From positions 1 through 64,000 of the forward strand of contig SMSL01000008.1 of the NCBI GenBank assembly GCA_007859995.1: DNA of 64,000 bases, given 5' to 3'. The notes beneath the pieces were generated by a model. That model had not been told where the DNA came from, ran no database searches, and saw only the letters and a program-made list of their open reading frames with translations. Within the stretch, counting starts at the first letter, position 1, and each line of letters begins with the position of its first letter. Below are positions 37,864 through 63,271 of the stretch, in pieces. Source of the stretch: Candidatus Brocadiaceae bacterium S225 (GTDB lineage Bacteria; Planctomycetota; Brocadiia; Brocadiales; Scalinduaceae). The translations under genes were made by a program, and so were the position numbers.

Positions 37864-38679
37864 CTAATCGCTCTTGCAAGGTAGTGAACTAAATTTCTTA
37901 ATTACTAACAGAAAAATTGTCGCAATGATTAATAGGTATTTCTCTATTAATAATATCTTACCTACATCATGACGGTTTTTTTTTACTACATGTAGATATC
38001 TCAAAAAATATGGCTTAATTCCAATCGAAGTGTTACCCCCGTGCTCTCTATAAGCAACTAACGGCTCATCAACATAATCAATTCGTTTGTTCTTCGCGAT
38101 TCTAAGCCAAAGATCATAGTCCTCAATAGCTCTAAATTTTATGTCGATATCAAAATGATAATCTTCATTTACAAAATTCCTTAACAAAACAGTGCTAGTT
38201 CCAATGAAATTATTAGATAAGAATAGAGGAATAAAAACATTGCCAGATCTTAATTTTTTTCTCTTAGGCAAGGTTTTTAATACTAATCCATCTTTGACAA
38301 TAATATACCTTGTGTAAACAAGGAAAATATTATCATTATCTTCTAATAATTTAATTTGTTTTTCTATTTTGGTAGGTTTCCACATATCATCTGAATCCAG
38401 AAAAGCTATATATTTACCACAAGATTGGCTGATTCCTACATTTCTAGATGCAGCAATAATTCCGTTATTTCTGAACTTTTCATACTTTATTCTTGTATCA
38501 CTAAAAGAAACAATGATTTCTTCTGTATTATCCTCGGAATAGTTGTCAATAATAATGAGTTCAATGTTTGTATACGTCTGATCTAATACAGATCCAATAG
38601 CATCACCTATAAATTGAGCATGATTATAGGTAGGCATTACAACAGATACAAGCGGTTGTTTAATACGAAGAGATTTCAT
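37864..38679 (-). CDS. GT2 family glycosyltransferase
   Basis: This 271-aa GT-A protein starts with PLVSVVMPTYNHAQFIGDAI and has the nucleotide-sugar motifs IELIIIDNYSEDNTEEII and SQSCGKYIAFLDSDDMW (DxD = DSD). A later segment, KFRAIEDYDLWLRIAKNKRI, carries the catalytic-base-type ED. The last 20 residues are hydrophobic (LIIATIFLLVIKKF), suggesting membrane association. It overlaps the upstream reductase gene by 20 bp, so both are read together. Confidence 0.88.
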   Translation of the reverse strand: MKSLRIKQPLVSVVMPTYNHAQFIGDAIGSVLDQTYTNIELIIIDNYSEDNTEEIIVSFSDTRIKYEKFRNNGIIAASRNVGISQSCGKYIAFLDSDDMWKPTKIEKQIKLLEDNDNIFLVYTRYIIVKDGLVLKTLPKRKKLRSGNVFIPLFLSNNFIGTSTVLLRNFVNEDYHFDIDIKFRAIEDYDLWLRIAKNKRIDYVDEPLVAYREHGGNTSIGIKPYFLRYLHVVKKNRHDVGKILLIEKYLLIIATIFLLVIKKFSSLPCKSD

Positions 38680-39646
38680 CCGATACTATAAATTGTTCAC
38701 ACAAATCCATTGTTCTCTTAATTTCCAGAGTCATATTTTCTTGTATACAAAAGTCTGTTCCCATAATTTTTTGAATTGAATATTTTACAGGCTTTGAGAC
38801 TATTGAATTTCTATTATTTGGGGTGGTTCTTATTTCTTTTATGTCTTTTTTGTACTTTGTTCTATAAACATCAGATATTTTCTGTGCCACATCTAATATT
38901 GACATAGTGCAATCCCCCCCCAAATTATAAATCCCGTCACCCCACTTATCAGGAATTACAAAAACGAAATGATAAACTGCATTTGCAACATCATACAGTG
39001 AAATAAAATCTCTATATTGTTTACCGGAGGAATTCAAAAGTATCTTCCCGTTAGTAACAGCTTGTCGGCAAATATCATTAAAAACCAGTTTCCACCTATC
39101 AATGCTTATATCCATAGGATAACCATAACCATTCGACATTCTGAATATTAGGGTTTTCATGCCTTGGCAGTGATTAAAATAGTTTACGAAATCTTCAGCT
39201 ACCTTGTGTGTTATTGCATAAGGGTGAAAAGGTTTCGGAAGTGTTTCTTCTGTAATAACAGTATCGGAAATATCCCCGTATACATGAAATGTTGAAAAGA
39301 AGACAAATCTGTTTACATTATTAATCTTTGCTGCATTTAATACCCTATAAGTTCCTTTAGCATTTACCTCTATAGCTAACTCCGGATTATTTGCAGACTC
39401 TGTCTCATTCAGGGCTGCCAGATGAACTATAATATCAATACTTTTATCTTTTAAACACTCAGCAATAGAAGCCTCATCCAAAACGTTCATATGTAGTACT
39501 GTAAATTTTTCTGTCCAGGAAGGAAGTTTTCGATGCTTATTTCTTGTTGTAAGAAATACTTTAGAACCTGGTTCTCTCTCTTTGATATGACATGCCACCC
39601 TCCCACCAACATACCCCAATCCTCCAGTAATCAGAATATTTCTCAT
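38660..39646 (-). CDS. NAD-dependent sugar epimerase/reductase (SDR)
   Basis: A 328-aa extended SDR with the Rossmann motif NILITGGLGYVGGRVACHI and VHLAALNE, the catalytic FFSTFHVYGD Ser/Thr region and the YAITHKVAED motif (Tyr and Lys four apart). It lies between a 3,5-epimerase-like gene and a GT2 gene, downstream of rfbG and rfbF. A 4-ketoreductase acting on the CDP-4-keto-6-deoxyhexose made by RfbG is the best guess; a simple epimerase role is also possible. Confidence 0.8.
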   Translation of the reverse strand: MRNILITGGLGYVGGRVACHIKEREPGSKVFLTTRNKHRKLPSWTEKFTVLHMNVLDEASIAECLKDKSIDIIVHLAALNETESANNPELAIEVNAKGTYRVLNAAKINNVNRFVFFSTFHVYGDISDTVITEETLPKPFHPYAITHKVAEDFVNYFNHCQGMKTLIFRMSNGYGYPMDISIDRWKLVFNDICRQAVTNGKILLNSSGKQYRDFISLYDVANAVYHFVFVIPDKWGDGIYNLGGDCTMSILDVAQKISDVYRTKYKKDIKEIRTTPNNRNSIVSKPVKYSIQKIMGTDFCIQENMTLEIKRTMDLCEQFIVSDEISSY

Positions 39647-40092
39647 TTTTCCTCAATATGCCATTGATAAGGAATAAAACTATCCAATGGACTCATTTGT
39701 TCTGCTTCATCTTGGTCATGAGGAATGTCCGTACAATTTGCTATAAGAGCTTGTGTAGAAGAGGCACATTGGAACCCATACCATAAAAGAGGAGGTATTT
39801 TCACAAGGCAGTAATTATCTTCACCGATTTCCAAAACTTCAGTTCTCCCGTAACTTTTTGTACCGTCACGATTGTCATATATGACGAGTTTTATCATACC
39901 AATCGGCACAGCAAAATTTTGTATCATTTCCTTGTGTCTTTTCCACGCTTTTACTACTCTAGGGTTTACAACAGAGAAATATATCTCTCCAAATTTCTTA
40001 AAAAGAGGAGAATCGTTCCTCAGCATATGCATAACCTTTCCTCTTTCATCCACAATCTGTTTTAAGCTTTGAATAATTACACCATCAATCAT
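39643..40092 (-). CDS. dTDP-4-dehydrorhamnose 3,5-epimerase-like cupin
   Basis: A 149-aa RmlC-like cupin. It has QIVDERGKVMHMLRNDSPLF, KFGEIYFSVVNPRVVKAWKR and HKEMIQNFAVPIGMIKLVIY. VKAWKRHKEMIQNF replaces the usual VIRGLHYQ, so substrate handling likely differs, but the WKRHK... histidine context is kept. RmlC enzymes are normally 180 aa; this short form fits CDP- or dTDP-sugar 3- or 5-epimerases of deoxyhexose loci. It overlaps the SDR gene by 4 bp. Confidence 0.75.
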   Translation of the reverse strand: MIDGVIIQSLKQIVDERGKVMHMLRNDSPLFKKFGEIYFSVVNPRVVKAWKRHKEMIQNFAVPIGMIKLVIYDNRDGTKSYGRTEVLEIGEDNYCLVKIPPLLWYGFQCASSTQALIANCTDIPHDQDEAEQMSPLDSFIPYQWHIEEK

Positions 40093-40154
40093 TTAATCTC
40101 AATTCCATTCACTATTCTAGTATTTATTAAATCCTACAAATTTTCTAAACTTTT

Positions 40155-41294
40155 TCATTTTGCCCAAATCAACCCTCTCTTTTGTGCCAAACACTTATAT
40201 CCATCAATCTGCTTAGTAGTAAAATCATACATGTCCTTATCAGTACTATCATAATAGTTTTTATACCATTCAGAAGTTATTTTAACCGTTTCTTCGAAAG
40301 AGAGGACTGCATGCCAGTTTAAATAAGATAACGCTTTTTCACAATTAAGATGTAAAAGGACAGACTCCTTTTTCTCCTTATCGCCTTCCTTTGATATACA
40401 CCATTTACCATTCTTCAATGTCTTAGTAAATTCGCATAAAAGTTCTTCCACTGTACGATTAACATCACTCAACGGCCCGAAATTAAAAGACTCTCCCGAA
40501 ACTCTTTCATTTCTAAGTAAAAAATTAGCGCCCAACCACAAATAGCCACTCAAAGGCTCAAGAACATGTTGCCATGGGCGAGTAGCCAACGGATTTCTTA
40601 TCTCAAGACGTTTACCCTTAAAAAATGCTCTCACACAGTCAGGCACAATCCTGTCTACAGCCCAATCACCTCCTCCGATCACATTTCCAGCCCTTGCTGT
40701 AGAAATCTTTGGAGAACCATCCTCTGAGAAAAACGATTTGATATAAGAATTACTAGCAATTTCAACACAAGCTTTTGAAGCGCTATATGGATCATCACCT
40801 CCTAATCTATCATTCTCACGATACCCCCATATCCACTCTACATTTTGGTAACATTTGTCGCTTGTAATTATAACTGCAGCCTTGACCGTTTTTGATCTTC
40901 GTATACATTCAAGAATATTCACAGTGCCAACCAGATTAGTATTAAATGTATCTTGTGGCATATCATATGAAAGACGTGTTATCGCTTGTGCTGCTAAATG
41001 AAATACTATATCTGGTGAGCATTCATCAAACACCTGTTCCAAATGATTCAAGTCTTTAACATCACCTGTAATATGTTCTAACTTATTTACAAGGTTTAAT
41101 ACGTTGAAGTTTGATGGATTGGTTGGTATGTTAAGTGAATATCCTATAACATTAGCCCCAAGATTTAAGAGCCATGTGCTTAGCCACGAACCTTTAAAAC
41201 CAGTGTGGCCGGTAATGAGTACGCGCTTTCCAGAGTAAATATTTTTGAAAGAGTGAGTCAAAGGATCGGAAGATTGGTTGTCTGAACTTATCAT
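40155..41294 (-). CDS. rfbG: CDP-glucose 4,6-dehydratase
   Basis: The 379-aa SDR converts CDP-glucose to CDP-4-keto-6-deoxyglucose. It shows KRVLITGHTGFKGSWLSTWL, the YSLNIPTNPSNFNV region, FHLAAQAITRLSYDMPQDTF, ITSDKCYQN, the YSASKACVE catalytic Tyr-Lys pair and RAGNVIGGGDWAVDRIVPDC, all classic RfbG. The upstream rfbF supplies the CDP-glucose. Full length. Confidence 0.93.
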   Translation of the reverse strand: MISSDNQSSDPLTHSFKNIYSGKRVLITGHTGFKGSWLSTWLLNLGANVIGYSLNIPTNPSNFNVLNLVNKLEHITGDVKDLNHLEQVFDECSPDIVFHLAAQAITRLSYDMPQDTFNTNLVGTVNILECIRRSKTVKAAVIITSDKCYQNVEWIWGYRENDRLGGDDPYSASKACVEIASNSYIKSFFSEDGSPKISTARAGNVIGGGDWAVDRIVPDCVRAFFKGKRLEIRNPLATRPWQHVLEPLSGYLWLGANFLLRNERVSGESFNFGPLSDVNRTVEELLCEFTKTLKNGKWCISKEGDKEKKESVLLHLNCEKALSYLNWHAVLSFEETVKITSEWYKNYYDSTDKDMYDFTTKQIDGYKCLAQKRGLIWAK

Positions 41295-41460
41295 TTAGCA
41301 CATCTTGAATGGTTATTCTTGTTAAATTGTAAAACTGAGAGGTTTTGGTGAAAACAAGATTTGTTTACTTCATACCCATGTTTTTCAGCGTCTCCAATAT
41401 TTTGCATATTCATTAAACTCCCAGATCTCATACATTCCTCAATCTTTCCATCTCTTTTTA

Positions 41461-42240
41461 CTATTCATCCCACACCTTCCATGGAGCCTTTCCACTATCC
41501 CATAACTCCTCTAGAAAACGAAAGTCTCTATAAGTATCCATACATTGCCAAAAACCTTTATGATTAAAAACCTTTAATTCATTATCTAAGGCTAATTTTT
41601 CTAAAGGGGCTTTTTCTAGAATGCAATTGTCTTCATCATTCAAATATTTAAAAAATTCCTTCTCGAATATAAAATATCCACCATTTATTTTATTATCAGT
41701 TCCTGTTGGTTTTTCACTAAATGATATTACTCGGTCTTTACAAATCGAAAGCTCTCCATACCTTGATGGAGGAGATGCACCCGTCACGGTGCCTATATTA
41801 CCATGCTTCTTATGAAAACTTAACAGTTCCATCATATTCATACCAGTAACCCCATCGCCATATGTCAGCATAAAGCGATCCTCATTAATGAACCTTTCTA
41901 TTCTTTTTAATCTGGCACCCGTCATAGCATTTAATCCTGTATCAACTAGTGTAATCTTCCAGCCATGTTCTGAATGACGGGGATGTATTTTAATATCATT
42001 TGTTCCCAATTCAATTGTAAAATCATTTGAGATCATTTCATAATTATAAAAATATTCTTTTATTACATTACCTTTATAACCGAGGCATAGTATAAACTCT
42101 TTAAAACCATAGCAGGAGTAAGTCTTCATAATATGCCAGAGAATCGGCATTCCACCTATTTCAACCATTGGTTTGGGCTTAATCTCTGTTTCCTCTCTAA
42201 GACGAGTACCCTGACCACCACACAATATAACAACTTTCAT
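41461..42240 (-). CDS. rfbF: Glucose-1-phosphate cytidylyltransferase
   Basis: I start the gene at the ATG at 42240, giving 259 aa that begin MKVVILCGGQGTRLREETEI, the exact RfbF N-terminus. The longer frame adds 18 lysine-rich residues and would overlap the upstream gene. Other motifs are KPKPMVEIGGMPILWHIMKT, FMLTYGDGVTGMNM, and GGYFIFEKEFFKYL. It makes CDP-glucose from CTP and glucose-1-phosphate, the first step of the CDP-deoxyhexose branch with RfbG. The dehydrase RfbH is absent. Confidence 0.93.
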   Translation of the reverse strand: MKVVILCGGQGTRLREETEIKPKPMVEIGGMPILWHIMKTYSCYGFKEFILCLGYKGNVIKEYFYNYEMISNDFTIELGTNDIKIHPRHSEHGWKITLVDTGLNAMTGARLKRIERFINEDRFMLTYGDGVTGMNMMELLSFHKKHGNIGTVTGASPPSRYGELSICKDRVISFSEKPTGTDNKINGGYFIFEKEFFKYLNDEDNCILEKAPLEKLALDNELKVFNHKGFWQCMDTYRDFRFLEELWDSGKAPWKVWDE

Positions 42241-42272
42241 ATCATAATCTCTCTTTTTAGTCTTAATTCTTT

Positions 42273-44261
42273 TCAACTTAAAAGTTTTTCCCAATCTTTA
42301 AGGGTTTCATCTAAATACCAATAGCTTGATATAAATTGTTTGGAACTTGTAATGAGTGCCTCCTCAACATCTTTTTCCAATAGTGTTTGAACTGAATGTC
42401 TTAATCCATCCGGATCATAAATCTTTGTATAATATTTATCATGTCCATTCAATGGACTCATAAACATATAATCACTGAAAACAGGCAATACGACTTTACA
42501 CCCAACTGCCAGAGCTTCTAATGCAACAATAGTAGATCCGGCCATAACAATAGTTGCATCATTTAAAAGTATATCTACTGGGCTATCCTTTATTTCATAT
42601 CCGCATTTCTGGTCATCAATATCCAAAACTCTCAGAATCTCATCTACCGGCTGAGCTGGATGTCCTTTCAGCCATATTTTAAAATTTCTTTTACCGGGGA
42701 ATGCTTCATTGAGTAGTGATATTAATAAAATAGTCTCATTTCGGTCGAAGGAACATGCAACCAACAAAATGGGTACTTTATTCCCTATCTTAACATTACT
42801 ATTTGATAGATATTTGTTTAAATACAATTGTCTGATTGCTTCAACTTTTTTCAAATTGGGATACCCCTGTTTAGCCATTAAATGATAGGATATATCACCA
42901 TTACATGCTAACACGTCTGGCAAAGGAAATTTTATCTCCTTCCTGTCATCTTTCATCTCTTCATCATGGTGAAAATAATGAAAGAAGTTTCTAGGTACAG
43001 AAGTGTGCTGAAATCCTATAGTCTTTACCTTTTGAGATCGTAATTCATTTGCAGCATTTAACGCATTTTCCCATGCATGCATCTCCGCAAGATATATACA
43101 ATGCGAGACAGTCTTAAGGCTATTAAATGCTCTCTTGTATAACTCAAAATAAACAATCCCCCGAATACCTGTTTCACCGACAAAAGACCGTCTCCAGAGT
43201 GCATACAAAAGTATCATTGATTCCGAATCAGTCAACCCATTTATTAAAAACCTTGGGTTTAACATTACTGTTAAAATCAAATATTTATATATTTGATTGA
43301 GCCATACAAATATTGAATATAAAATAGTGCGAACTGACAATAATTCTTCAAGAAAAAACAGTACTTCTCCATTATTGGCAAGTTTTCTCCCCAACCTTAA
43401 TGCGTCACTATATGAATATCCATCAATGGGAACATACATAAAAAGCCAAGTAATCGGCTTGTTTTTTTTTGCTAATTTATCTTGAAGTGGAATAAAGTAC
43501 TTATTCCTTAATGATCCTTTTTCAGATGCCTTCTTGTCTACTGCTGGAAAATAACTTACAACAAGAATTGAATTTTTTTTGATACTGCGATTAGCAAGAG
43601 AACCCATTATTTTTTTTGCCTTAAAACCCTTAATTACATAATCAACAATCCATACTAAAGAATATACAACGTCTCCACAGAATCCAATCCTGTCAAGACT
43701 CTTTCTGATCAATTCTTTACTGATATGTGGCGCTGTAACTATAGAATTTGAGATTTTTACTTGAACAGAATGTATCTTACATATATTTTTTACAACCTTT
43801 TTAAATCTTCTTTCTTTGATTGACAGACGACATACATCATAATCTTTATATTTAAGCAACTCTTCAAAAGCCTGTACCTGAGCAATACGAAAGAAAACAT
43901 CTGTCTTCAAGGTATTTTTCTCTGATAGTAGTGAAAACCACCAAGTTGTTATTTCCCCTTTCGGAGTGAGAAACCATTCTTTAATCGACTTATCCCATAC
44001 CTTACAATCACCAAGGTTTGAAGACCATTCCGAAACTCGCGTTCTAATCTTATCAACCTCATCATTGATTAACCTCGCAGAGTCCAACAGATTTATAGCA
44101 GAATCGTCTACGCACATCTCGGATGTACAAATATTTCTAACCGCATTTATAACAGACCAGTTAGAAGTTAAAGGAAATATATCAACCTCTTCTGACTTAT
44201 TAATATTTTTTAATTCATTAATATTTATATGTTCATCAAATAGCAGTATAGCTTTAGACAT
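42273..44261 (-). CDS. Large surface-carbohydrate biosynthesis protein, unknown reaction
   Basis: A 662-aa soluble protein. The first 230 residues are helical with no known motif. The second half looks GT-B/CDP-glycerol-transferase-like: HCIYLAEMHAWENALNAANE, KVKTIGFQHTSVPRNFFHYF, PDVLACNGDISYHLMAKQGY and KIWLKGHPAQPVDEILRVL. An ATIVMAGSTIVALEALAVGC stretch near residue 590 recalls the nucleotide-binding end of such transferases. TIGR-type 'surface carbohydrate biosynthesis protein' families have this look. A related-looking protein lies at 55469. The reaction cannot be read from the sequence. Confidence 0.6.
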   Translation of the reverse strand: MSKAILLFDEHININELKNINKSEEVDIFPLTSNWSVINAVRNICTSEMCVDDSAINLLDSARLINDEVDKIRTRVSEWSSNLGDCKVWDKSIKEWFLTPKGEITTWWFSLLSEKNTLKTDVFFRIAQVQAFEELLKYKDYDVCRLSIKERRFKKVVKNICKIHSVQVKISNSIVTAPHISKELIRKSLDRIGFCGDVVYSLVWIVDYVIKGFKAKKIMGSLANRSIKKNSILVVSYFPAVDKKASEKGSLRNKYFIPLQDKLAKKNKPITWLFMYVPIDGYSYSDALRLGRKLANNGEVLFFLEELLSVRTILYSIFVWLNQIYKYLILTVMLNPRFLINGLTDSESMILLYALWRRSFVGETGIRGIVYFELYKRAFNSLKTVSHCIYLAEMHAWENALNAANELRSQKVKTIGFQHTSVPRNFFHYFHHDEEMKDDRKEIKFPLPDVLACNGDISYHLMAKQGYPNLKKVEAIRQLYLNKYLSNSNVKIGNKVPILLVACSFDRNETILLISLLNEAFPGKRNFKIWLKGHPAQPVDEILRVLDIDDQKCGYEIKDSPVDILLNDATIVMAGSTIVALEALAVGCKVVLPVFSDYMFMSPLNGHDKYYTKIYDPDGLRHSVQTLLEKDVEEALITSSKQFISSYWYLDETLKDWEKLLS

Positions 44262-44294: not shown

Positions 44295-45359
44295 TTAGGT
44301 ATTAACTCTAAAGTAAGCTAGTATTAAGTCTCTTAGCTCATCGTTGAGGGGGACATACTCTTTTCTCATAGAACCAGGCCCATTAGTCAGAATACAACCA
44401 AGATTATTGCCCATATTCTTCTTATCTTTAGAAAGGGCTCTAATATAATCATCTATCATATCTTCATTTATCCTAAAAGTTGGTAAATTCCGCGACATAA
44501 TCTTGCGCATATCCTCAAACACATTTTTATCTAAATATCCTAAACGGAGTGATACAAAATTAGCAATGTCCATTCCCAAAGTTACAGCTTGTCCATGAGG
44601 CACACTATAATTGCTAATTGTTTCAATTGCATGCCCGAAAGTATGGCCATAATTAAACAAATTTCTTTCATTCTTGTCTAGCTCGTCTATTTCAATAATT
44701 TTCTTCTTAATTTTTAAACTTGCTTTTATATATTTTTCTAAAAGTGAAGGTGTCTTTAATATATTATCATAACTATCCATCATTTCTCTTGCCAATCTAC
44801 TTCCGTCATTAAAATAAAAGTGAAGTATCTCTCCTATGCCTGATTTGATTTCACCAACAGGCAAGGTTTTCAGAAAATTGATATCAATAAATACCTTTGA
44901 AGGAGGGTAAAAAGATCCTAATAAATTCTTATACTCGTTCAGATTAATTGAAGTCTTACTACCGATACAGCTATCAGACTGAGATAGTAAAGTTGTTGGG
45001 AAAAACACCCACTCGATACCACGAAACAGAATTGTGCTTACAAACGATGTAATATCTTGTATTATTCCACCACCTATGGCAATAAGACAATTGTCTCTTC
45101 TAACATTGGCTGTAATAAGCCGTTGAATTAAACCAGTGCAATAATCAAGGGTTTTATTCTGCTCTACGGCCTCAACGATTAAAGTACGTTCTCCAGTCAA
45201 TTTACAACTAATTTGTTTCCCAAAAAGGTCCATCACTCTTTTATCAATTATAAAAAATGAGTTAATATTCGCATAGTGTTCGATAGTAGAATTTATATCT
45301 TCGAGAAAACAAACTTCATAATCTCTTAGTCTGGATTTAACAATAAATTTTTCAGACAT
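44295..45359 (-). CDS. 3-dehydroquinate-synthase-like sugar-phosphate cyclase
   Basis: The 354-aa frame (start at 45359, overlapping the SDR stop as ATGTCTGA) is an AroB-superfamily NAD/metal enzyme: IAIGGGIIQDITSFVSTILF, LLSQSDSCIGSKTSINLNEY and LFNYGHTFGHAIETISNYSV. In true dehydroquinate synthases the substrate loop reads SGLAEVIKYGLI; here it is SGIGEILHFYFNDG, with the catalytic-site Lys replaced by His, and QVDSSVGGKT is QSDSCIGSKT. These changes and the glycan setting argue for another sugar phosphate as substrate. A carbocyclic or cyclitol product is therefore possible; this is inference. Confidence 0.75.
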   Translation of the reverse strand: MSEKFIVKSRLRDYEVCFLEDINSTIEHYANINSFFIIDKRVMDLFGKQISCKLTGERTLIVEAVEQNKTLDYCTGLIQRLITANVRRDNCLIAIGGGIIQDITSFVSTILFRGIEWVFFPTTLLSQSDSCIGSKTSINLNEYKNLLGSFYPPSKVFIDINFLKTLPVGEIKSGIGEILHFYFNDGSRLAREMMDSYDNILKTPSLLEKYIKASLKIKKKIIEIDELDKNERNLFNYGHTFGHAIETISNYSVPHGQAVTLGMDIANFVSLRLGYLDKNVFEDMRKIMSRNLPTFRINEDMIDDYIRALSKDKKNMGNNLGCILTNGPGSMRKEYVPLNDELRDLILAYFRVNT

Positions 45360-46104
45360 TAACAAATCCACCATCCGCTATAATATTCTGCCCTGTTATA
45401 TATGTATTAAATGAACTCGCTAGAAAAAGTACTACATTTGAAATGTCAACAGGTCCTGCAAGCCGTTGTGCTGGTATCTGCGTGGCAAGATCTTCTATCT
45501 CTTTCTCACTTAATATACTTCTGGTTAAGTCTGTAAGCACAAATCCAGGTGAGACCGAATTTACTAATACATTATGCTTTGCCAGTTCATTGGACACTGC
45601 TACTGTCATCCCCATAATGCCAAACTTGCTGGTGGAATAAGCAGATCTCTTCTCCTTGCTGATTACACCTAATATAGAAGCAATATTAATGATACGACCA
45701 TAAGCATTTCTTTTCATAATCCCACTGACTACACGTATGACCATAAAAGGTGCCCTTAAATTTACCGACATAACGTCATCCCAATCCGTAGTCTTTACTT
45801 CCGCTATATAGTCAATCTTATTAATCCCCGCATTGTTGACACATACATCGATCTTTTCATATCTCTTAAGTTCCTCTATAAATCCTTCAGTACTCTCAGC
45901 ATTGGTAAAGTCCACACAATAAAATTTCCTCTTGCCTTTTTCAGTTTTCTCAGATGTTTCGTTTAGTATCTTAACCTGATCTTTATTTGTACCAGTAAGT
46001 ATAAGCTTAGCTCCCAATCCAGCAAAATCATCGGCTATCTGTTTCCCGATTCCGCGAGTGGCCCCAGTAACAAGCACAACCTGATTACTATAATCAATTT
46101 TCAT
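45352..46104 (-). CDS. FabG-like short-chain dehydrogenase
   Basis: The 250-aa classical SDR has NQVVLVTGATRGIGKQIADD, VCVNNAGINKIDYIAE, IINIASILGVISKEKRSAYS and the YSTSKFGIMGM catalytic Tyr-Lys, with NSVSPGFVLTDLTRS. FabG-like enzymes reduce or oxidise keto/hydroxy groups. Overlap with the AroB-like cyclase gene downstream (8 bp) suggests it oxidises or reduces that enzyme's substrate or product. Confidence 0.88.
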   Translation of the reverse strand: MKIDYSNQVVLVTGATRGIGKQIADDFAGLGAKLILTGTNKDQVKILNETSEKTEKGKRKFYCVDFTNAESTEGFIEELKRYEKIDVCVNNAGINKIDYIAEVKTTDWDDVMSVNLRAPFMVIRVVSGIMKRNAYGRIINIASILGVISKEKRSAYSTSKFGIMGMTVAVSNELAKHNVLVNSVSPGFVLTDLTRSILSEKEIEDLATQIPAQRLAGPVDISNVVLFLASSFNTYITGQNIIADGGFVNV

Positions 46105-46236
46105 ATTAAATATATTGACTCCTATATAACTCTTTTGATTGTTAGTTCATATGTCATTCAGATTTCATAATTCTGGCATTGTCATTTTTCATGTTAAAAA
46201 CCACCAGTCCCATTATGAGCGTAACAAACTAAATTG

Positions 46237-47142
46237 TCACCCTTTCAATCCTTTTATTAAATTCTCAACAGACTCCATCTCCATTTGCCTTCTACATTCC
46301 TGAGTATAAGAACCAATATGTGGTGTTAAAATAACTTGTTCGTAATCACAAAGATGGCCACTATATGGTTCTTCCACAAAAGTATCTAAGCATGCACCTG
46401 CAACATGTCCACTATCAAGAGCATGAGTGAGCGATATTTCGTCAATCAGATGACCTCTTGCGATATTTATCAAATATACTCCTTTTTTCATCATTCCAAA
46501 CTCTCGTTCCCCAAGTAAGACACCGCTACCACTACAATGCAGAATTATGATATCCGCTTTTTTCAGCGCATCATCCATGTTCAGAATCTGGGTACCGTCT
46601 ACCTCACCCGAGAGCTCCGGCTCAACTGCTACTACATCTGATTCAAATGCCATTAAAAGTTGGCCAACTTTTCGACCAATACGCCCAAACCCTATTATTG
46701 CTACCACTTTCCCCTTTAGCTGAGTGCCTATCTGCTTGTCCCACTTCCTTTGATGCATAGACATGTTCATTTTATAAAGCTGGCGCATCATTGACAGCAA
46801 CAAGCCTAAAGTTAATTCGGCTACTGAAGTTGTTGGGGCATCTGGTGTTGAGAACACCTTAATACCTAGCTTCACCGCTGTTTTTAAGTCTACATTAGAC
46901 AACCCTGAACCACAGCGTGAAATAACCTTGAGTTCAGATTGTTCTAATACCCCTCTATTTAAGTCCTCCAGACCTGCAATTAAACCTATAAGTCCAGGTA
47001 AGAAATCTACCAACTCTTTTATTGTAAGTTTCCTTCCAAAAGGATTATCAACCACTTCAAACCCCTCATCAATGAGTTTATCCATGGGTGAAGAATCCAA
47101 AGCAGCAAACGTTGATGGGCCAATCAATATTCTTCTCTTCAT
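46237..47142 (-). CDS. D-2-hydroxyacid dehydrogenase (SerA/PdxB-like)
   Basis: The 301-aa enzyme has the two-domain D-2-hydroxyacid dehydrogenase plan. Substrate-domain motifs are ISRCGSGLSNVDLKTAVKLG and TPDAPTTSVAELTLGLLLSM. The NAD domain has GKVVAIIGFGRIGRKVGQLL, HCSGSGVLLGEREFGMMKKG, NIARGHLIDEISLTHALDSG (catalytic Arg) and the HIGSYTQE catalytic His. It probably interconverts a 2-keto and 2-hydroxy acid sugar intermediate. The gene overlaps the SIS isomerase gene by 4 bp. Confidence 0.88.
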   Translation of the reverse strand: MKRRILIGPSTFAALDSSPMDKLIDEGFEVVDNPFGRKLTIKELVDFLPGLIGLIAGLEDLNRGVLEQSELKVISRCGSGLSNVDLKTAVKLGIKVFSTPDAPTTSVAELTLGLLLSMMRQLYKMNMSMHQRKWDKQIGTQLKGKVVAIIGFGRIGRKVGQLLMAFESDVVAVEPELSGEVDGTQILNMDDALKKADIIILHCSGSGVLLGEREFGMMKKGVYLINIARGHLIDEISLTHALDSGHVAGACLDTFVEEPYSGHLCDYEQVILTPHIGSYTQECRRQMEMESVENLIKGLKG

Positions 47143-47765
47143 TTAGTTTCTACTTTCTCACTCATTAATCTAAAAGTCAGAAATGAAGTGATTATGTGAT
47201 CTAAGATCATATGGATATCTTCAACTGGGCCGTACTCACCTTTGTTCGCTTTAACACGAACAACATAATCACACATTTTCAAAAGTTTGCCCCCATCAAA
47301 ACCAACTAAACCTATTGTAATTCCACCCATTTCCTTTGCCTGTTTAACCGCTTCTATGATATTAGGACTGTTTCCACTTGCCGAAATAGCCACAAGCACA
47401 TCACCCTCACTGCACAATTCACTAATCTGAATAGAGAACAGTTTATCATAACCATAATCATTGCCAAGTGCAGTAAGCAAAGCGGCACTACCTGTTAAAC
47501 TATGAGTCTTGAAACAATGTACTCCTGCTTTTCGGCCAACCTCTCCAAGATCCTGCGCAAAATGGGATGCTGTAGCAGCGCTACCGCCATTGCCAGCAAA
47601 ATATATTGTTTTTCCATTTTCTCTAGCATTAATGAAACAATTAATCACACCTTTAATAGCGCTTGCATCAAGTGTTTTCTGTAGATCATTTAAATATTTA
47701 AAATAACTATTAAAATAATCTACACCTTCATTACATTCTTCAAATAATTTTTCGAGATATTTCAA
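47139..47765 (-). CDS. SIS-domain isomerase, GmhA-like
   Basis: The 208-aa protein resembles sedoheptulose-7-phosphate isomerase (GmhA/LpcA) and its relatives. Visible are TIYFAGNGGSAATASHFAQD, LTALGNDYGYDKLFSIQ, VAISASGNSPNIIEAVKQAK, and PVEDIHMILDHIITSFL with the metal/catalytic Glu-His area. It should act on a sedoheptulose- or other ketose-phosphate, giving either a heptose intermediate or the precursor for the AroB-like cyclase. It overlaps the 2-hydroxyacid dehydrogenase by 4 bp. Confidence 0.87.
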   Translation of the reverse strand: MKYLEKLFEECNEGVDYFNSYFKYLNDLQKTLDASAIKGVINCFINARENGKTIYFAGNGGSAATASHFAQDLGEVGRKAGVHCFKTHSLTGSAALLTALGNDYGYDKLFSIQISELCSEGDVLVAISASGNSPNIIEAVKQAKEMGGITIGLVGFDGGKLLKMCDYVVRVKANKGEYGPVEDIHMILDHIITSFLTFRLMSEKVETK

Positions 47766-47783
47766 AAACCTCTCCCTCCTCCT

Positions 47784-48830
47784 CTAGTCCGGATTAGATA
47801 TGTTAAATTTATTTCTCCATTCAGGATCTGCCCAGTATATTCTATAAACAAGTTTCATTGTATTAAGCGCCTCCGAACTAGTACCATGCAGTATCTCTTT
47901 CCCATTACAAATTGCATCTGCAAATTCATTTATTTCATCACGCCATGAGTTATCTTCGAGATATGTTATTATCTCTTCACGGTCAGTCCCCGTATGTGAT
48001 TTACCACAACGTTTACCAATAATAAGTTTTTCTTCTCCGTAACTTTTTGAACCGGCAAGAATCCCCTGAAGCTCCAAATATCCGTCAGACAGTGTGATCT
48101 CTAATCGAAACCGGTGTTGCCACTGAGTGGCACTGGAGTGAATCACGGCAACCCTTCCATTAATATCCTTCATTAAAGCATAAGCATTATCTTCTACATC
48201 TAGACCCCAATACTGATTTGACACAAAACTTTTCACCTCTTTAAACTCATCGCAAAAAAGACTTATTAAATCTACCATATGAATTCCCTGATCAAGAAGT
48301 ATTCCACCACCAGAATACTTTCTCTCTGATCTCCATTCACCAACAAAAGGAACAATTTTACTCTTACCATATACACCTAGGATATTAATAATCTCTCCCA
48401 TTTCACCAGACTTGACTATTTCCAAGGCATCTATTACGGAATAATGATAACGATGATTAAAGCCATATTTAAGGCATAATGAATGATTTCTATTTTCGGC
48501 CTCTATCACACTTTCAATATCAGAGATACTCCTCCCTGGTGGTTTCTCACAAAAAACATGTATGCCTCTTTCAAGCCCGGCAATAGTAACCTGTGGAGCC
48601 AAATAGTTAGGTAAACTTACAAACAGCATATCTATTGGTTCTTCAAGCAGATGTTTGAAGTCTTTATAACAACGCAAGCCGTCATGCATTATACCAGAGT
48701 TTGAAAATTTCTGATCACAAACAGCTATTGTTTCTAGTTTCGGATGACGATCAATAAATACTCGCCTGCGTTCTCCAACCACTCCATAGCCAGCAATACC
48801 AACTCTTAATTTGTCTTTTATTATTGACAA
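47784..48830 (-). CDS. Gfo/Idh/MocA-family oxidoreductase
   Basis: A 348-aa protein with the N-terminal Rossmann fold (LRVGIAGYGVVGERRRVFID), ETIAVCDQKF, the GIHVFCEKPPGRSISDIESV catalytic Lys motif, and a C-terminal alpha/beta domain with GGGILLDQGIHMVDLISLFC. Enzymes of this family oxidise or dehydrate sugars and inositols, often myo-inositol-like substrates. Its presence next to an AroB-like cyclase fits cyclitol-type chemistry but does not prove it. Confidence 0.85.
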   Translation of the reverse strand: MSIIKDKLRVGIAGYGVVGERRRVFIDRHPKLETIAVCDQKFSNSGIMHDGLRCYKDFKHLLEEPIDMLFVSLPNYLAPQVTIAGLERGIHVFCEKPPGRSISDIESVIEAENRNHSLCLKYGFNHRYHYSVIDALEIVKSGEMGEIINILGVYGKSKIVPFVGEWRSERKYSGGGILLDQGIHMVDLISLFCDEFKEVKSFVSNQYWGLDVEDNAYALMKDINGRVAVIHSSATQWQHRFRLEITLSDGYLELQGILAGSKSYGEEKLIIGKRCGKSHTGTDREEIITYLEDNSWRDEINEFADAICNGKEILHGTSSEALNTMKLVYRIYWADPEWRNKFNISNPD

Positions 48831-48945
48831 TATGTTATCCTAATTTCTATTAATATTAAGACTACAGCTTGTTCTGTCATATCTAAGGACACGGAGTGTT
48901 AGAGTAAAGGCATTTAGGATAAAGCAATGCTTTGTTCTGTTGTTT

Positions 48946-49698
48946 TTAAATATACTTCTTCACCAAAGGATCTGACGATAGTACATTTTCCACAAGTTTA
49001 ATATCTCCGGGTACGTCGACCCCTATCATTAGATTTTCAGTTTCTACTATCCGCACGCAATACCCATGCTCCACAGCCCGCAACATATCAACAGACTCAA
49101 TTTTCTCAAGTGGTGTTGGCTCTAATTGAGAAAATTGTAGAAGAAATTCTTTTCGAAATGCAATAATCCCTAATTGTTTTAACCCGGTGTAATTATTTGA
49201 AACAGCTTTTTTCCGAGAGGGAATTGGCTCTCGTGAAATGTATAGTAAATCTCCAAATGTATTGGTTACTACTTTGGGTGCATTAGGGTTCTTAAACTCC
49301 TGCAGGTCTACTATTTTAGTTACAAGATTAGTACACTGCAAACCTAAGTCTTCTATCAGGGGAGATACTGCTTTATCCACCATTTCAGGTAGTACCAGAG
49401 GCTCATCCCCTTGAACGTTAATAACTATATCGCATTCCAAATCCTCAGCGGCCTCAGCAACTCTATCAGTACATCTATCATATGTATCGGCAGTCATAAT
49501 CACTTTACCTCCAAATGATTCTACTACCTTCTTTATTTCCACGTCACAAGTTGCAACAATTGTCTCATCTACCAACTCGCACATCGATGTTCGCCTTCGT
49601 ACATGTTCGATCATCGGCAATCCTAAAATTGGAACGAGCGGTTTTCCAGGAAATCTGGTGGCTGCCATCCTTGACGGTATTATAGCGACTATTTTCAT
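48946..49698 (-). CDS. kdsB: 3-deoxy-manno-octulosonate cytidylyltransferase-like enzyme (CMP-Kdo synthetase)
   Basis: I start at the ATG at 49698, giving 250 aa that begin MKIVAIIPSRMAATRFPGKP, the exact KdsB N-terminus; the longer frame would add 31 residues and overlap the methyltransferase. It has DIVINVQGDEPLVLPEMVDK, ISREPIPSRKK and LEKIESVDMLRAVEHGYCVR. It couples CMP to a 3-deoxy-2-ulosonic acid. Classical KdsB would need kdsA and kdsC, absent here; only kdsD is in the window. It may instead activate a relative of Kdo made by the aldolase. Confidence 0.85.
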   Translation of the reverse strand: MKIVAIIPSRMAATRFPGKPLVPILGLPMIEHVRRRTSMCELVDETIVATCDVEIKKVVESFGGKVIMTADTYDRCTDRVAEAAEDLECDIVINVQGDEPLVLPEMVDKAVSPLIEDLGLQCTNLVTKIVDLQEFKNPNAPKVVTNTFGDLLYISREPIPSRKKAVSNNYTGLKQLGIIAFRKEFLLQFSQLEPTPLEKIESVDMLRAVEHGYCVRIVETENLMIGVDVPGDIKLVENVLSSDPLVKKYI

Positions 49699-49730
49699 TT
49701 TTTTATTTAAACGATTATAAATATTATTCC

Positions 49731-50720
49731 CTAATAACTCTTTTGTCCCAAAACTCTCATGTGCGAGCTGAATAGATTCCTGCGGATCCATGTTTGAAGT
49801 TCATTTTTTGCCTTTGGACTTCCTTCGTTTATAAGTAAATTACAAAATCGCCCGGCATCAAAACCTTCGCCCTTAACCATGCCCTCTATAATATCAACAT
49901 CCAGTTGACCCGGTGTCTCAATCTCTTTTATATTGAAACCGCTGGAATTAAGAAGCAATGATATGGACTTCGGATTAAAAAAGTTTAGATGGTGAGGAGG
50001 AAATATACTTTTTGATTTTTCCCAAAGTGTCTGCATATCGAATCCATACACGTTTAATGTGGTCAATAAAACATAACCTCCTGGCTTGAGAAGTTTGAAA
50101 ATGTCATTGAAAAACAACCCGGGATTAAATAAATGCTCTGTTAATTCAAAAACAGTTAAATAATCAAAACGATTTTCCATGTCTTCTATATTTTCCAGAC
50201 ATCTATCCAAAACCTCAAACCCTTTTTTACCACAGATTTCTGCCATATCTCTTGATGGCTCAATTGCAATAAAATGATTATCTGGCAGCAGTCTTTTTAA
50301 CTCTTCAAGGAACAAACCAAATCCTGCACCAATATCACCTATAACGTTATTCTTTCCATTGACAATCAACCTGCTAATATGTTCAGCTCTCGGTTTGAAA
50401 ATCTTTTCCCTTCTTACCTCGGCTACCGGTTTAAAAAAATCATTTATCCAGAAACTCGTTGATTCAGAATTTGAATAAAACTCTTTCAAAGACTCAAAAC
50501 TGGGCCTGGGATTTACAAATAGAGTTGCGCATATATTACATGAGACATATTTAAATCCTATTTTTACAAACTCATAATTATAATCATTATTATCACAGGC
50601 GGGACAGTTTGTTTCTATAAATGAATTGAATTCAAATAAATCCTTTACATCATTTTCTACAAGTTCAAGATATTTGTTGAATACGTCACGTTTCCTGATT
50701 TCTTCTTCCTTCATCCTCAT
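49731..50720 (-). CDS. SAM-dependent methyltransferase with N-terminal zinc ribbon
   Basis: A 329-aa protein. Residues about 37-70 form a four-cysteine ribbon: TNCPACDNNDYNYEFVK, VSCNICATLFVNPRPSFESL. The class I methyltransferase fold follows, with NVIGDIGAGFGLFLEELKRL, HFIAIEPSRDMAEICGKKG, VFELTEHLFNPGLFFNDIFK, and GGYVLLTTLNVYGFDMQTLW. This is the layout of the Methyltransf_23 proteins common in glycan loci, acting on sugars (C- or O-methylation). It ends 33 bp before kdsB. Confidence 0.87.
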   Translation of the reverse strand: MRMKEEEIRKRDVFNKYLELVENDVKDLFEFNSFIETNCPACDNNDYNYEFVKIGFKYVSCNICATLFVNPRPSFESLKEFYSNSESTSFWINDFFKPVAEVRREKIFKPRAEHISRLIVNGKNNVIGDIGAGFGLFLEELKRLLPDNHFIAIEPSRDMAEICGKKGFEVLDRCLENIEDMENRFDYLTVFELTEHLFNPGLFFNDIFKLLKPGGYVLLTTLNVYGFDMQTLWEKSKSIFPPHHLNFFNPKSISLLLNSSGFNIKEIETPGQLDVDIIEGMVKGEGFDAGRFCNLLINEGSPKAKNELQTWIRRNLFSSHMRVLGQKSY

Positions 50721-50839
50721 TGTTTTTATCTATTTGTTACATTAATTCTTCGTGGAATATCCTTAACGATCCTATTTGTCCTGTAAATACTGACCTACTT
50801 CTACCGGTATTTTTTCAGTTTTTTAATATTCTTTATTCT

Positions 50840-51613
50840 TCAATATTTTAAATCTCTGGTATGACTTAGGGCTTGCCGAGTTGCATTCTCAAGGAAAATC
50901 ATATCTACCCCATATGCAATAAAGCGAAACCCTTTTTTCATGCATTCTTCAAGTTTTTCCCTATCAGGATGAACAATATGAATCCCTGGTGCAACTCCAC
51001 ACTTCATACAACTGCGCAGAAATATTATCTCTGCCTTAATAACCTCCGGGTGATTTAATTCACCTAAAACACCCAAAGAGTTTGACAAATCATATGGACC
51101 AATCATTGCAGCATCTACTCTGTCAACAGACAAAATGTTATCTATATTGTTGATCGCCTCTTTTGATTCAATTTGCACAACAACAACACTATTTCCCAAT
51201 AACCATTCCTTGTACTCCTTAAAACCGTTACCATATTTTTGTGCTCGATATAAACCTACTCCCCGAATCCCTTTTGGAGGATAATGAATTGACGCAACCG
51301 CTTGTTCAGCTTCTTCTGGTGTATTCACCATTGGAACTATTATTCCATGAGCCCCGCAATCCATCACTCTTTTTACCTGGATAGGATCATTTTCTGATAC
51401 CCGAACAATTGGAACAGAACCTGAAAGTTCTATAACGCGTATAAGTGATTCCGCAGTCTTTATGTCAATTCCTGTATGTTCTAAATCAATAGTTACAAAA
51501 GAGAATCCGCTCGTCGCAATTATTTCTGCAGCCTCTACGCTACCCAGCGATACCCAGCTTCCAACAACAGTATCGGATTCTAATCTGTGTTTAATTAATA
51601 ATTCCTTTTTCAT
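50840..51613 (-). CDS. HpcH/HpaI-family aldolase
   Basis: The 257-aa class II pyruvate aldolase has VGSWVSLGSVEAAEIIATSG, FVTIDLEHTGIDIKTAESLI, the catalytic Arg in PIVRVSENDPIQVKRVMDCG, GAHGIIVPMVNTPEEAEQAV and KGIRGVGLYRAQKYG, VQIESKEAI (metal ligand Glu) and AAMIGPYDLSNSLG. It joins or splits pyruvate and an aldehyde, a route to 2-keto-3-deoxy sugar acids. Near kdsB-like and cyclase genes it could build a novel ulosonic acid from an aldose. Confidence 0.88.
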   Translation of the reverse strand: MKKELLIKHRLESDTVVGSWVSLGSVEAAEIIATSGFSFVTIDLEHTGIDIKTAESLIRVIELSGSVPIVRVSENDPIQVKRVMDCGAHGIIVPMVNTPEEAEQAVASIHYPPKGIRGVGLYRAQKYGNGFKEYKEWLLGNSVVVVQIESKEAINNIDNILSVDRVDAAMIGPYDLSNSLGVLGELNHPEVIKAEIIFLRSCMKCGVAPGIHIVHPDREKLEECMKKGFRFIAYGVDMIFLENATRQALSHTRDLKY

Positions 51614-51651: not shown

Positions 51652-52662
51652 TCAACTACCGTCATTAATCAATTTACTCATTTTTATTCTTAAATCATTA
51701 ATGTATATTCCGATTTCAAAACCGTCAGAATCAGCCCACCCAACTTGTATCCCTTTTGGTCTCAAAACATTAGCCATAAATTTTTTGAATAAACGACTAA
51801 CTCTTCTTATCTGGTTCACTGGTTTTATACAAAGTAATTGTTCAATCTGATTTTTATCTTCTTGATTAAAAATATCGTATTTAAAAAATAACTCATTCAG
51901 GTGCCTACCATAATCATAATAGCCGTGTAATGCAGCTATTATGATCATTTTTATCCCTTTTGTTCTACTTATAGATTTGACATCTTCTCCAAAATCGGTT
52001 CTAAAATACAATGCATCACCAAAAATTATTTGTCCCCTAGCTGGCATATTTGCTGGTATATTTTCTCTTTTCCACCGGTGTCTGTTTAAGTCAAATAATG
52101 TAAAACCATTCTCTCTTAGGTATTTGTCTACATCCGCGAATAAAGGTTGATCTTCATATAATTGAGCAAATTCAACCTCAACCGCAATTCCAAAAACATC
52201 TTTTGACAATACCTGTCCAGAACCTTGAAAAATTTTTAACTCAGTCCCCTGTGTGTCTACTTTTATAAAATCAATATCCCTAATACGGTTCTCCTCAAGT
52301 ACAGAGTTCAGAGAATTTGTAGATAATTGAGTTTTCTTTACAATATTAAAACGTTCAAAATCGGGAAACTGATTTAGCAACTTCGTATTAGGCTTTAATA
52401 GCGAAGAGCAACCTGGGCTTTTTGTAATATTTAGAGTGGCATCTTTCTTTCCGTCAAGAAGAGCAATCGGTAGGTATTTTATAAACACATCTTTCTCCCG
52501 AATTTGCGCATTTAGTTTCTTACACTCTGTTTCGTCTGGCTCAAATCCAATGATATTAATAATATCTCCAAAATGAACCCAAGGTTCTGTAATCCCCCAG
52601 CGAGCACCAACATCCACATATAAAATTTTGTCTTTTTTCAGTTCTTTAAAGATATTATTCAA
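51652..52662 (-). CDS. FkbM-family methyltransferase
   Basis: The 336-aa protein carries the FkbM methyltransferase domain at residues about 10-205: LYVDVGARWGITEPWVHFGD, IIGFEPDETECKKLNAQI, RDIDFIKVDTQGTELKIFQG, GIAVEVEFAQLYEDQPLFAD. FkbM enzymes O-methylate polyketides or glycans. The C-terminal third has no recognised domain. It lies between the aldolase and a second methyltransferase, likely tailoring the surface glycan. Confidence 0.85.
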   Translation of the reverse strand: MNNIFKELKKDKILYVDVGARWGITEPWVHFGDIINIIGFEPDETECKKLNAQIREKDVFIKYLPIALLDGKKDATLNITKSPGCSSLLKPNTKLLNQFPDFERFNIVKKTQLSTNSLNSVLEENRIRDIDFIKVDTQGTELKIFQGSGQVLSKDVFGIAVEVEFAQLYEDQPLFADVDKYLRENGFTLFDLNRHRWKRENIPANMPARGQIIFGDALYFRTDFGEDVKSISRTKGIKMIIIAALHGYYDYGRHLNELFFKYDIFNQEDKNQIEQLLCIKPVNQIRRVSRLFKKFMANVLRPKGIQVGWADSDGFEIGIYINDLRIKMSKLINDGS

Positions 52663-60616: not shown

Positions 60617-61046
60617 GTACTGTGTATACAAAAGTTGAGTGGCTTTCCTTAAAATCTGCTTTCTGAAATGCCTTTATAGACGCTATATTATTTTTTTTGA
60701 TCTCTGCAATTACCGGTTTACAAGGTTTTTTTTCGCCTATAAACCTCTCCGTCCCCAATCTGATTACTTCTGAGCCAAATCCTTTGCCTAAATAATCAGG
60801 ATTAAGCATAACACTTACCTTTATCACATCACCTTTTTCTTCAAATCTAACTATTCCAATTTTATCATCCTTAAAACATGCTATATATATTTGTGAATTC
60901 TTATCTTTACTCTTTTTCTTAAACCATCTTTCATGCTCATCCCGGGATATAGATTCTGTATTAAATGAGTTTTTTCTTATAACAGGGTGATTTCTCCACC
61001 AAAACAAATCATCTATATCTGAAGATCTCACATTTCTCAGCCTCAA
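60609..61046 (-). CDS. PseH-like GNAT N-acetyltransferase
   Basis: A 145-aa GNAT protein starting MRLRNVRSSDIDDLFWWRNH, with the WWRNHPVIRKNSF motif typical of PseH-like amino-sugar acetyltransferases. The acetyl-CoA loop is in LNPDYLGKGFGSEVI (GKGFGS). It should acetylate an amino group of the nucleotide amino sugar upstream of the PseI step. It overlaps the pseI start by 8 bp and therefore belongs to the same module. Confidence 0.85.
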   Translation of the reverse strand: MRLRNVRSSDIDDLFWWRNHPVIRKNSFNTESISRDEHERWFKKKSKDKNSQIYIACFKDDKIGIVRFEEKGDVIKVSVMLNPDYLGKGFGSEVIRLGTERFIGEKKPCKPVIAEIKKNNIASIKAFQKADFKESHSTFVYTVHE

Positions 61047-61158
61047 GTATCCTTTTGCTATATCTATCCTTAACTCTTTGATAATATGCCCTATCCTTCC
61101 TTGTTTTTCAATCTAAACCTGATTCATTCTCGATGCGCTTTAACCAGAGATAGCAATT

Positions 61159-61950: not shown

Positions 61951-61979
61951 TTTTTAAAAATGTTTTGTTACAAACCTAC

Positions 61980-63269: not shown

Positions 63270-63271
63270 AT

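Follow-up and report, generated by a model that had tools for sequence, protein, structure and literature searches.

What does a relative of dehydroquinate synthase (DHQS) make when its gene stands among those for a sugar-phosphate isomerase, several oxidoreductases and a cytidylyltransferase? The question is raised by a stretch of DNA from Candidatus Brocadiaceae bacterium S225 (the window, 64,000 nucleotides long, corresponding to positions 1-64000 of contig SMSL01000008.1, our G000:C8), whose source genome comprises 2.96 Mb in 28 contigs and is 79% complete. Eight genes lie there in one leftward run on the minus strand at 44295-51613, and a preliminary description of the DNA had proposed that they lead, through an AroB-type cyclase, to an unknown acid activated with cytidine monophosphate (CMP). 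All eight open reading frames (ORFs) were verified at the coordinates below, and Pfam confirmed every enzyme class that had been named. Our analysis makes it very probable that one dedicated pathway exists, and the product of that pathway is probably CMP-linked.

44295..45374, minus strand: AroB-related cyclase (AroBL), 359 amino acids; TIGR04425 and DHQ_synthase/DHQS_C
45352..46104, minus strand: short-chain dehydrogenase/reductase (SDR) family oxidoreductase (SDR1), directly upstream of the cyclase; PF13561/PF00106 (adh_short)
46237..47142, minus strand: D-2-hydroxyacid dehydrogenase (D2HDH); PF02826/PF00389 (2-Hacid_dh)
47139..47765, minus strand: GmhA-like SIS isomerase; PF13580 (SIS_2)
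47784..48830, minus strand: Gfo/Idh/MocA oxidoreductase; PF01408/PF22725 (GFO_IDH_MocA)
48946..49698 (ORF open to 49791), minus strand: KdsB-like cytidylyltransferase; PF02348 (CTP_transf_3)
49731..50720, minus strand: S-adenosylmethionine-dependent methyltransferase (MT1), accessory; PF13489 (Methyltransf_23)
50840..51613, minus strand: HpcH/HpaI class II aldolase, accessory; PF03328, 136.9 bits

Conservation of the gene set across genomes

Scanning species genomes with an alignment of five cyclases returned 308 stretches encoding relatives. The best 80 of these, together with four loci from a phylum sample (L033-L036), make up the 84 loci analyzed here; the window itself is not counted among them, and two loci (L037 and L038) were excluded as more AroB-like. 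We call a locus full when its contig stretch spans at least 20 kb (n = 45), many of the other contigs being short. The profiles for the partner families were trained on clusters from these same loci, and the control loci were not used in training.

All 45 full loci contained the SDR, the Gfo/Idh oxidoreductase and a cytidylyltransferase belonging to at least one of three types, 41 contained D2HDH, 41 contained SIS and 27 contained HpaI; the SDR, Gfo/Idh, D2HDH and SIS genes occurred jointly in 38 of the 45. The corresponding counts for all 84 loci were 81 (SDR), 67 (Gfo/Idh), 65 (cytidylyltransferase), 64 (D2HDH), 59 (SIS) and 34 (HpaI). In 80 of the 84 loci, the SDR gene was the immediate upstream neighbour of the cyclase gene and shared its strand, and the median distance of the partner families from the cyclase ranged from 0 to 3.3 kb. 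In the window, the two ORFs overlap by 23 bases (45352-45374), as had been reported for this pair.

The controls gave a different picture. In the first control, 20 AroB loci drawn from that phylum sample (one of 12.5 kb, the other 19 of 19.9 kb), an SDR was found in four and D2HDH in one, and Gfo/Idh, SIS, cytidylyltransferase and HpaI in none. A second control, chosen as an example of surface-glycan loci, consisted of 20 of the 27 places encoding a CDP-glucose dehydratase outside the source genome (10 of them at least 15 kb long); it yielded D2HDH in two, SDR and cytidylyltransferase in one each, and Gfo/Idh, SIS and HpaI in none. Because both control sets were nearly devoid of the partner families, we rejected a chance neighbourhood. 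The co-occurrence across genomes that the preliminary description had suggested looking for is borne out for the core.

By our own count, with family and class names assigned by us, ~19 phylum-level names appear in the titles of the records behind the 80 loci. The comparative data as a whole strengthen the idea of a CMP-activated acid made by way of an AroB-type cyclase. Carriers include Omnitrophota, Bacteroidota, Desulfobacterota, Actinomycetota, Verrucomicrobiota, Spirochaetota and one Thaumarchaeota. Metagenome bins predominate, so that an isolated odd host may reflect a binning error. Among 13 genomes of the window's genus, the gene set was found in the source genome alone; the other cyclase matches within the genus, present in 10 of the 12 congeners, were 32-34% identical. 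Such a patchy distribution is what would be expected of a mobile surface-glycan module. No protein fusions informing the order of steps were found among the families scanned.

The cyclase family and its substrate pocket

The cyclase scored 433.2 bits against the NCBIfam model TIGR04425 (cut-off 400), which makes it a member of that family, and 265.7 bits against the aroB equivalog TIGR01357, below the cut-off of 305. NCBI knows TIGR04425 as a hypothetical equivalog, an AroB-related putative sugar phosphate phospholyase (cyclizing), and the model line assigns neither substrate, product nor pathway. When 40 alignment members were scanned (the window protein included), 38 matched TIGR04425 at an E-value equivalent to ~400 bits, and at a threshold of E 1e-90 no further NCBIfam model, not even aroB, matched any of the 40. 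In a FastTree phylogeny of 84 AroBL proteins (83 relatives of at least 320 amino acids plus that of the window), six DHQS, one 2-deoxy-scyllo-inosose (DOI) synthase and four PRK06203-type proteins, all 84 AroBL fell in one clade (support 0.857). AroBL shares with AroB the superfamily and the metal and catalytic residues, and departs from it in two motifs, having DSC for DSS and GGGIIQD for GGGVxGD.

The accessible text of a study of Staphylococcus aureus DHQS (PMC6262012) lists 11 residues of the pocket that binds 3-deoxy-D-arabino-heptulosonate 7-phosphate (DAHP): Asp130, Lys136, Asn146, Glu178, Lys181, Lys221, Arg235, Asn239, His242, His246 and Lys314. Aligned to that enzyme, the window AroBL keeps 10 of the 11, the sole change being Lys181 to His185 in the substrate loop SGIGEILHFYF. 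The preliminary description had pointed to this altered lysine, and correctly so for the window, but the change is a trait of a sub-clade rather than a mark of the family: across the 84 AroBL the position is His in 45 and Lys in 39, with all of the His-bearing proteins in a single clade (support 0.902).

Three other pocket residues were nearly invariant across the 84 AroBL (Lys221 in 84, Arg235 in 84 and Asn239 in 83); we take them to be Lys250, Arg264 and Asn268 in Aspergillus nidulans numbering. In DHQS, the Lys and Arg of this trio face the substrate carboxylate. The solved cyclases that act on sedoheptulose-7-phosphate or glucose-6-phosphate, which belong to the same superfamily and form carbocycles in natural-product pathways, each depart from DHQS at two of these three places, whereas AroBL departs at none: the DOI synthase 2d2x (presumably BtrC) has Gly at Arg264 and Glu at Asn268, and 4p53 (presumably ValA) has Met at Lys250 and Asp at Asn268 with Arg264 kept, both counted along the printed alignment. 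In an annotated plasmid DOI synthase, the Arg264 and Asn268 places hold Ala and Glu; in the four PRK06203-type proteins, labelled 3-dehydroquinate synthase by NCBIfam, the trio reads His, Ala/Ser and Asp. All seven proteins examined outside DHQS and AroBL thus carry an acid at the Asn239 place.

We read this pattern as predicting a cyclase substrate that carries a carboxylate, a ulosonate phosphate rather than sedoheptulose-7-phosphate. Because the DAHP pocket is kept in AroBL and altered in 2d2x and 4p53, sedoheptulose-7-phosphate itself, the substrate first suggested for this cyclase, appears unlikely to be cyclised directly. Ring closure by an enzyme of the AroB type is still plausible.

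Partner enzymes

In D2HDH, R229, E258 and H275 are invariant (n = 16); the closest solved protein to its profile is phosphoglycerate dehydrogenase, and 2-ketogluconate reductase, also among the solved relatives, offers a precedent for oxidation at C2, as does PdxB. Among solved proteins, phosphoheptose isomerases come nearest to the SIS profile, and the solved relatives of the Gfo/Idh profile include glucose-fructose oxidoreductase. The KdsB-like cytidylyltransferase reached the cut-offs of TIGR00466 (KdsB; 167.7 bits against 155.2) and PRK13368 (308 against 255) and fell below that of the stricter KdsB equivalog NF003948 (169.5 bits against 281). Because profiles match it from residue 32, its start is probably an internal Met near base 49698. 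In the aldolase, H46, R71, E149 and D175, presumably the metal and catalytic residues, are invariant (n = 20); the protein lies under the cut-offs of the HpaI and GarL equivalogs, and its specificity cannot be read from its residues. Relatives of MT1 occur in 17 of the 84 loci.

A proposed pathway

Arranging the steps by the chemistry that each family suggests gave the order SIS, Gfo/Idh, D2HDH, cyclase, SDR and cytidylyltransferase, a working model with inferred steps that we put forward tentatively. The GmhA-like isomerase would convert a ketose phosphate, probably sedoheptulose-7-phosphate, to an aldose 7-phosphate, which the Gfo/Idh enzyme would oxidise at C1 to a lactone; in some loci, a 6-phosphogluconolactonase or a PF04199 hydrolase might open that lactone. 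Oxidation at C2 by D2HDH would then give a hept-2-ulosonate 7-phosphate, equivalent to DAHP plus a C3 hydroxyl. The AroB-related enzyme would bind its carboxylate, expel the phosphate and close the ring as DHQS does, yielding a carbocyclic keto acid whose ring ketone the SDR would reduce. Tailoring specific to the locus might follow (by the HpaI aldolase, by a HisC-like aminotransferase with a second Gfo/Idh, or by others) before a KdsB- or NeuA/PseF-like cytidylyltransferase adds CMP to the end product, and glycosyltransferases, perhaps including the TIGR04326 protein described below, would consume the resulting donor. This order supplies the cyclase with a heptulosonate 7-phosphate, the type of substrate that its pocket predicts, and the SDR with a ketone. 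Taken as a whole, the statement that many phyla turn a heptose 7-phosphate into a CMP-linked carbocyclic (carba-)sugar acid, via two oxidations, a hydroxylated DAHP and an AroB-related cyclase, is possible but doubtful; the acid, perhaps a ring-fused ulosonic acid, would then be a common and so far overlooked component of surface glycans.

Interchangeable modules and variant loci

The preliminary description had included an extension with pyruvate, which does not stand as a general step. The aldolase is not part of the core: of the 18 full loci that lack HpaI, six carry a HisC-like aminotransferase and a second Gfo/Idh, and 12 carry neither. Over all loci, HpaI (34) and the HisC-like aminotransferase (10) never occur jointly, where ~4 joint loci would be expected if they were independent, and the second Gfo/Idh accompanies the aminotransferase in 10 of 10. 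Two of the ten aminotransferases were scanned, and both fell below the HisC cut-off.

The cytidylyltransferases are likewise of several types: KdsB-like enzymes occur in 31 loci and NeuA/PseF-like ones in 34, three loci having both, and a further PseF-like type occurs in six. In three loci (L033:5495-8321, L060 and L106), the PseF-like cytidylyltransferase carries a cupin domain (by Pfam for L033 only) and its gene lies beside those of a DUF4862-type protein and another SDR, and four of the six further PseF-like enzymes match the length of the cupin fusion in L033. These cupin-fused loci are a third flavour of the pathway end. A 6-phosphogluconolactonase-like gene (that of L102 scoring 140.5 against a cut-off of 124.45) occurs in eight loci and a PF04199 hydrolase in 24 others; the two are never found jointly, which may be chance, as ~2 joint loci would be expected.

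A smaller, second context of the cyclase was seen at L034:7511-12837, L035:9283-13644 and L036:4606-7375. Each has a diverged HpcH/HpaI-type aldolase (by Pfam for L034 and by similarity for the others), and L034 and L035 also have an acetolactate-synthase-like thiamine pyrophosphate enzyme and an SDR. SIS, Gfo/Idh, D2HDH and cytidylyltransferase were not found in these three loci, although gaps mean little for L036, where the contig measures just 7.8 kb. This context probably makes another product.

Points against the proposed order and alternative pathways

Several observations weigh against the order proposed above, with its predicted substrate and product. The CMP step is a weak point chemically: closure of the ring on C2 leaves no anomeric carbon, so that a CMP ester of the product would be unable to donate by the usual oxocarbenium route, and either a tailoring module rebuilds the anomeric carbon, or the ring stays open, or the ester formed by the cytidylyltransferase is of an unusual kind. 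A YhcH-type gene, present in 23 of the 84 loci (19 of which have a NeuA/PseF-type cytidylyltransferase), hints at a true anomeric centre; the one such protein scanned is related to N-acetylneuraminate anomerase and lies below that cut-off (86.7 of 160). The SIS isomerase scored 113.1 bits against the GmhA model TIGR00441, below the cut-off of 209.45, and the position that we take to correspond to the catalytic Glu65 of GmhA is Asp in 18 of 18 aligned proteins. SIS is missing from four of the 45 full loci, as is D2HDH from four. The closest solved relative of the Gfo/Idh profile, myo-inositol 2-dehydrogenase, oxidises a ring carbon rather than C1, and the proposed order leaves the role of HpaI unexplained. 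The lactonase-like genes lie within 250 bases of D2HDH in two loci and of SIS in one; more often they adjoin the gene for a TIGR04326-type protein (four) or a CDP-glucose cytidylyltransferase (five). Finally, one locus of the second control, L174, lacks a cyclase yet has relatives of SDR1, D2HDH, PF04199 and TIGR04326, and is either a partial or cut-off cassette or a separate pathway.

The difficulty of the anomeric carbon would disappear if the AroB-related enzyme were a phospholyase that does not cyclise. Elimination of phosphate and protonation of the enol would give a 7-deoxy-6-keto-hept-2-ulosonate, which the SDR would reduce at C6. The resulting 7-deoxyheptulosonic acid would have a normal anomeric carbon and would be activated with CMP as 3-deoxy-D-manno-octulosonic acid (Kdo) is. 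Such a route would cover every core gene and the cytidylyltransferase with no extra module, and it agrees with the YhcH-type genes. It is nevertheless unlikely, in view of the checked DHQS catalytic residues, which are all kept with the exception of Lys/His181, and of the ease with which the ring closes in DHQS after phosphate elimination.

HpaI would gain a role if it acted first, condensing a tetrose phosphate with pyruvate or hydroxypyruvate to form the ulosonate 7-phosphate for the cyclase, with D2HDH perhaps supplying the hydroxypyruvate. The pairing of cyclase and diverged aldolase in L034-L036, where Gfo/Idh, SIS, D2HDH and cytidylyltransferase were not found, is in keeping with such a route, and HpcH aldolases accept hydroxypyruvate with D-erythrose, according to the accessible text of PMC7610986. 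Left without explanation would be SIS in 41 and Gfo/Idh in 45 of the 45 full loci, as well as the 18 full loci that lack HpaI, and we likewise regard this route as having a small chance of being correct.

In the route first suggested, the cyclase would turn a neutral heptose phosphate, whether sedoheptulose-7-phosphate or some other, into a cyclitol; oxidation of the cyclitol, its extension by HpaI with pyruvate and activation with CMP would follow. An exocyclic aldehyde and HpaI would together give a C10 ulosonic acid, a pyranose fused to a carbocycle, which would resolve the missing anomeric carbon. HpaI occurs with cyclase, SDR, Gfo/Idh and cytidylyltransferase in 27 of the 45 full loci, and with all four core partners in 25, and the nearness of the Gfo/Idh profile to myo-inositol 2-dehydrogenase also fits. 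We consider the route improbable, given the DAHP pocket that AroBL keeps and that is altered in DOI synthase and 4p53 (Arg apart in the latter), the 18 full loci without HpaI, and a GmhA-type isomerase that direct cyclisation would leave without a clear task.

Finally, an ordinary second aroB with a Kdo activation set, brought together by chance in a surface-glycan island, is very unlikely and was rejected on clade, scores and gene context: singly, the genes do resemble AroB and KdsB, the KdsB-like protein exceeds the TIGR00466 cut-off and 39 of the 84 AroBL retain the checked pocket residues including Lys (one of all 84 lacking Asn268), but the association holds in 45 of 45 full loci and in neither control, the family has its own clade and, among the 40 members scanned, no match to other models at the threshold given above, and separate AroB and KdsB proteins are encoded elsewhere in the genome.

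Genomic setting

The eight genes are surrounded by a large surface-glycan island, with a flippase-like gene and glycosyltransferases in the window. Two further genes flank the set:

42273..44261, minus strand: TIGR04326 surface-carbohydrate protein with a GT-B-like fold; 260.8 bits, cut-off 250
51652..52662, minus strand: FkbM-type methyltransferase, PF05050; same run, pathway membership uncertain

Relatives of the TIGR04326 protein occur in 12 of the 84 loci, and in the family alignment (n = 13) a Lys-x-His-Pro motif stands out, with His534 and Pro535 invariant and Lys532 nearly so. Its structural model is fair (mean predicted local distance difference test score, pLDDT, 82), and among the 50 Foldseek matches listed were generic GT-B folds at query TM-scores of 0.28-0.37, including UDP-glycosyltransferases (UGTs), UDP-GlcNAc 2-epimerases, TagF and others. 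Model and Foldseek did not pin down the donor and hence whether the protein is a CMP-dependent transferase; the fold makes it a candidate glycosyltransferase for the pathway product.

A CDP-glucose pathway lies at 38660-42294. Its glucose-1-phosphate cytidylyltransferase and CDP-glucose 4,6-dehydratase, at 40.2-42.3 kb, scored 360 bits (TIGR02623) and 475 bits (TIGR02622), both above cut-off; near the cyclase, the former occurs in 16 of the 45 full loci and the latter in 13. An NAD-dependent epimerase and a small epimerase-like protein (PF00908) make up the rest. On the other side of the set, 59561-64000 holds pseudaminic-type genes (PseI, 499 bits against a cut-off of 340, and a weak PseH-like protein, at 59.6-61.0 kb), a pyridoxal-phosphate aminotransferase-like ORF called by eye, and a further ORF that reaches the edge of the window and matches kdsB weakly in its continuation (21.5 bits). 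The island may therefore produce two distinct CMP-linked acids. A 645-amino-acid protein at 57525-59462, with a weak likeness to asparagine synthase (40.7 of 267 bits), is possibly an amide-forming tailoring enzyme.

Elsewhere in the genome, contig C22 encodes another AroB in which all eleven DHQS pocket residues are present, and a second KdsB is encoded at G000:C9:62052-62813, adjoining a CTP-synthase-like ORF called by eye (the two together at L147:7919-10326). KdsA and KdsC, whose absence from the window had been remarked on, were found neither there nor in the rest of the genome, which at 79% completeness makes this weak evidence: KdsA scored above cut-off in 16 of 19 sampled relatives (the source genome not counted). 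A second kdsB without KdsA reflects either an assembly gap or a loss.

Relation to known systems and significance

The gene set resembles the Kdo pathway (KdsD/A/C/B) in its SIS isomerase, KdsB-like enzyme and CMP donor, and differs in having oxidoreductases and a cyclase in place of KdsA and KdsC. With the pseudaminic and legionaminic acid pathways it shares, in many loci, PseF/NeuA-like cytidylyltransferases and YhcH-type genes, and in the window an island with PseI and PseH-like proteins; a NeuB/PseI-type synthase dependent on phosphoenolpyruvate, however, lies near the cyclase in just eight of the 84 loci. We dropped a possible link to bradyrhizose because the accessible text of PMC4743980 names an 11-gene cluster and does not list its genes, so that no gene-level comparison was possible. 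No paper naming TIGR04425, TIGR04326 or LIC13510 was found in the literature searched, which leaves out most subscription journals, and a search combining gene and sugar terms gave nothing on this gene set among the titles and abstract starts listed.

We know of no precedent for a CMP-linked carbocyclic donor. The enzyme set is small and some carriers are cultured and named, among them Pedobacter yonginense and Mucilaginibacter segetis, which makes the question of what the pathway produces directly testable. The recurrence of the core with a CMP-sugar-type transferase under ~19 phylum-level names points to a widespread surface building block; if a carbocycle is made, it would represent DHQ-synthase chemistry directed to glycans, outside the shikimate and cyclitol antibiotic pathways.

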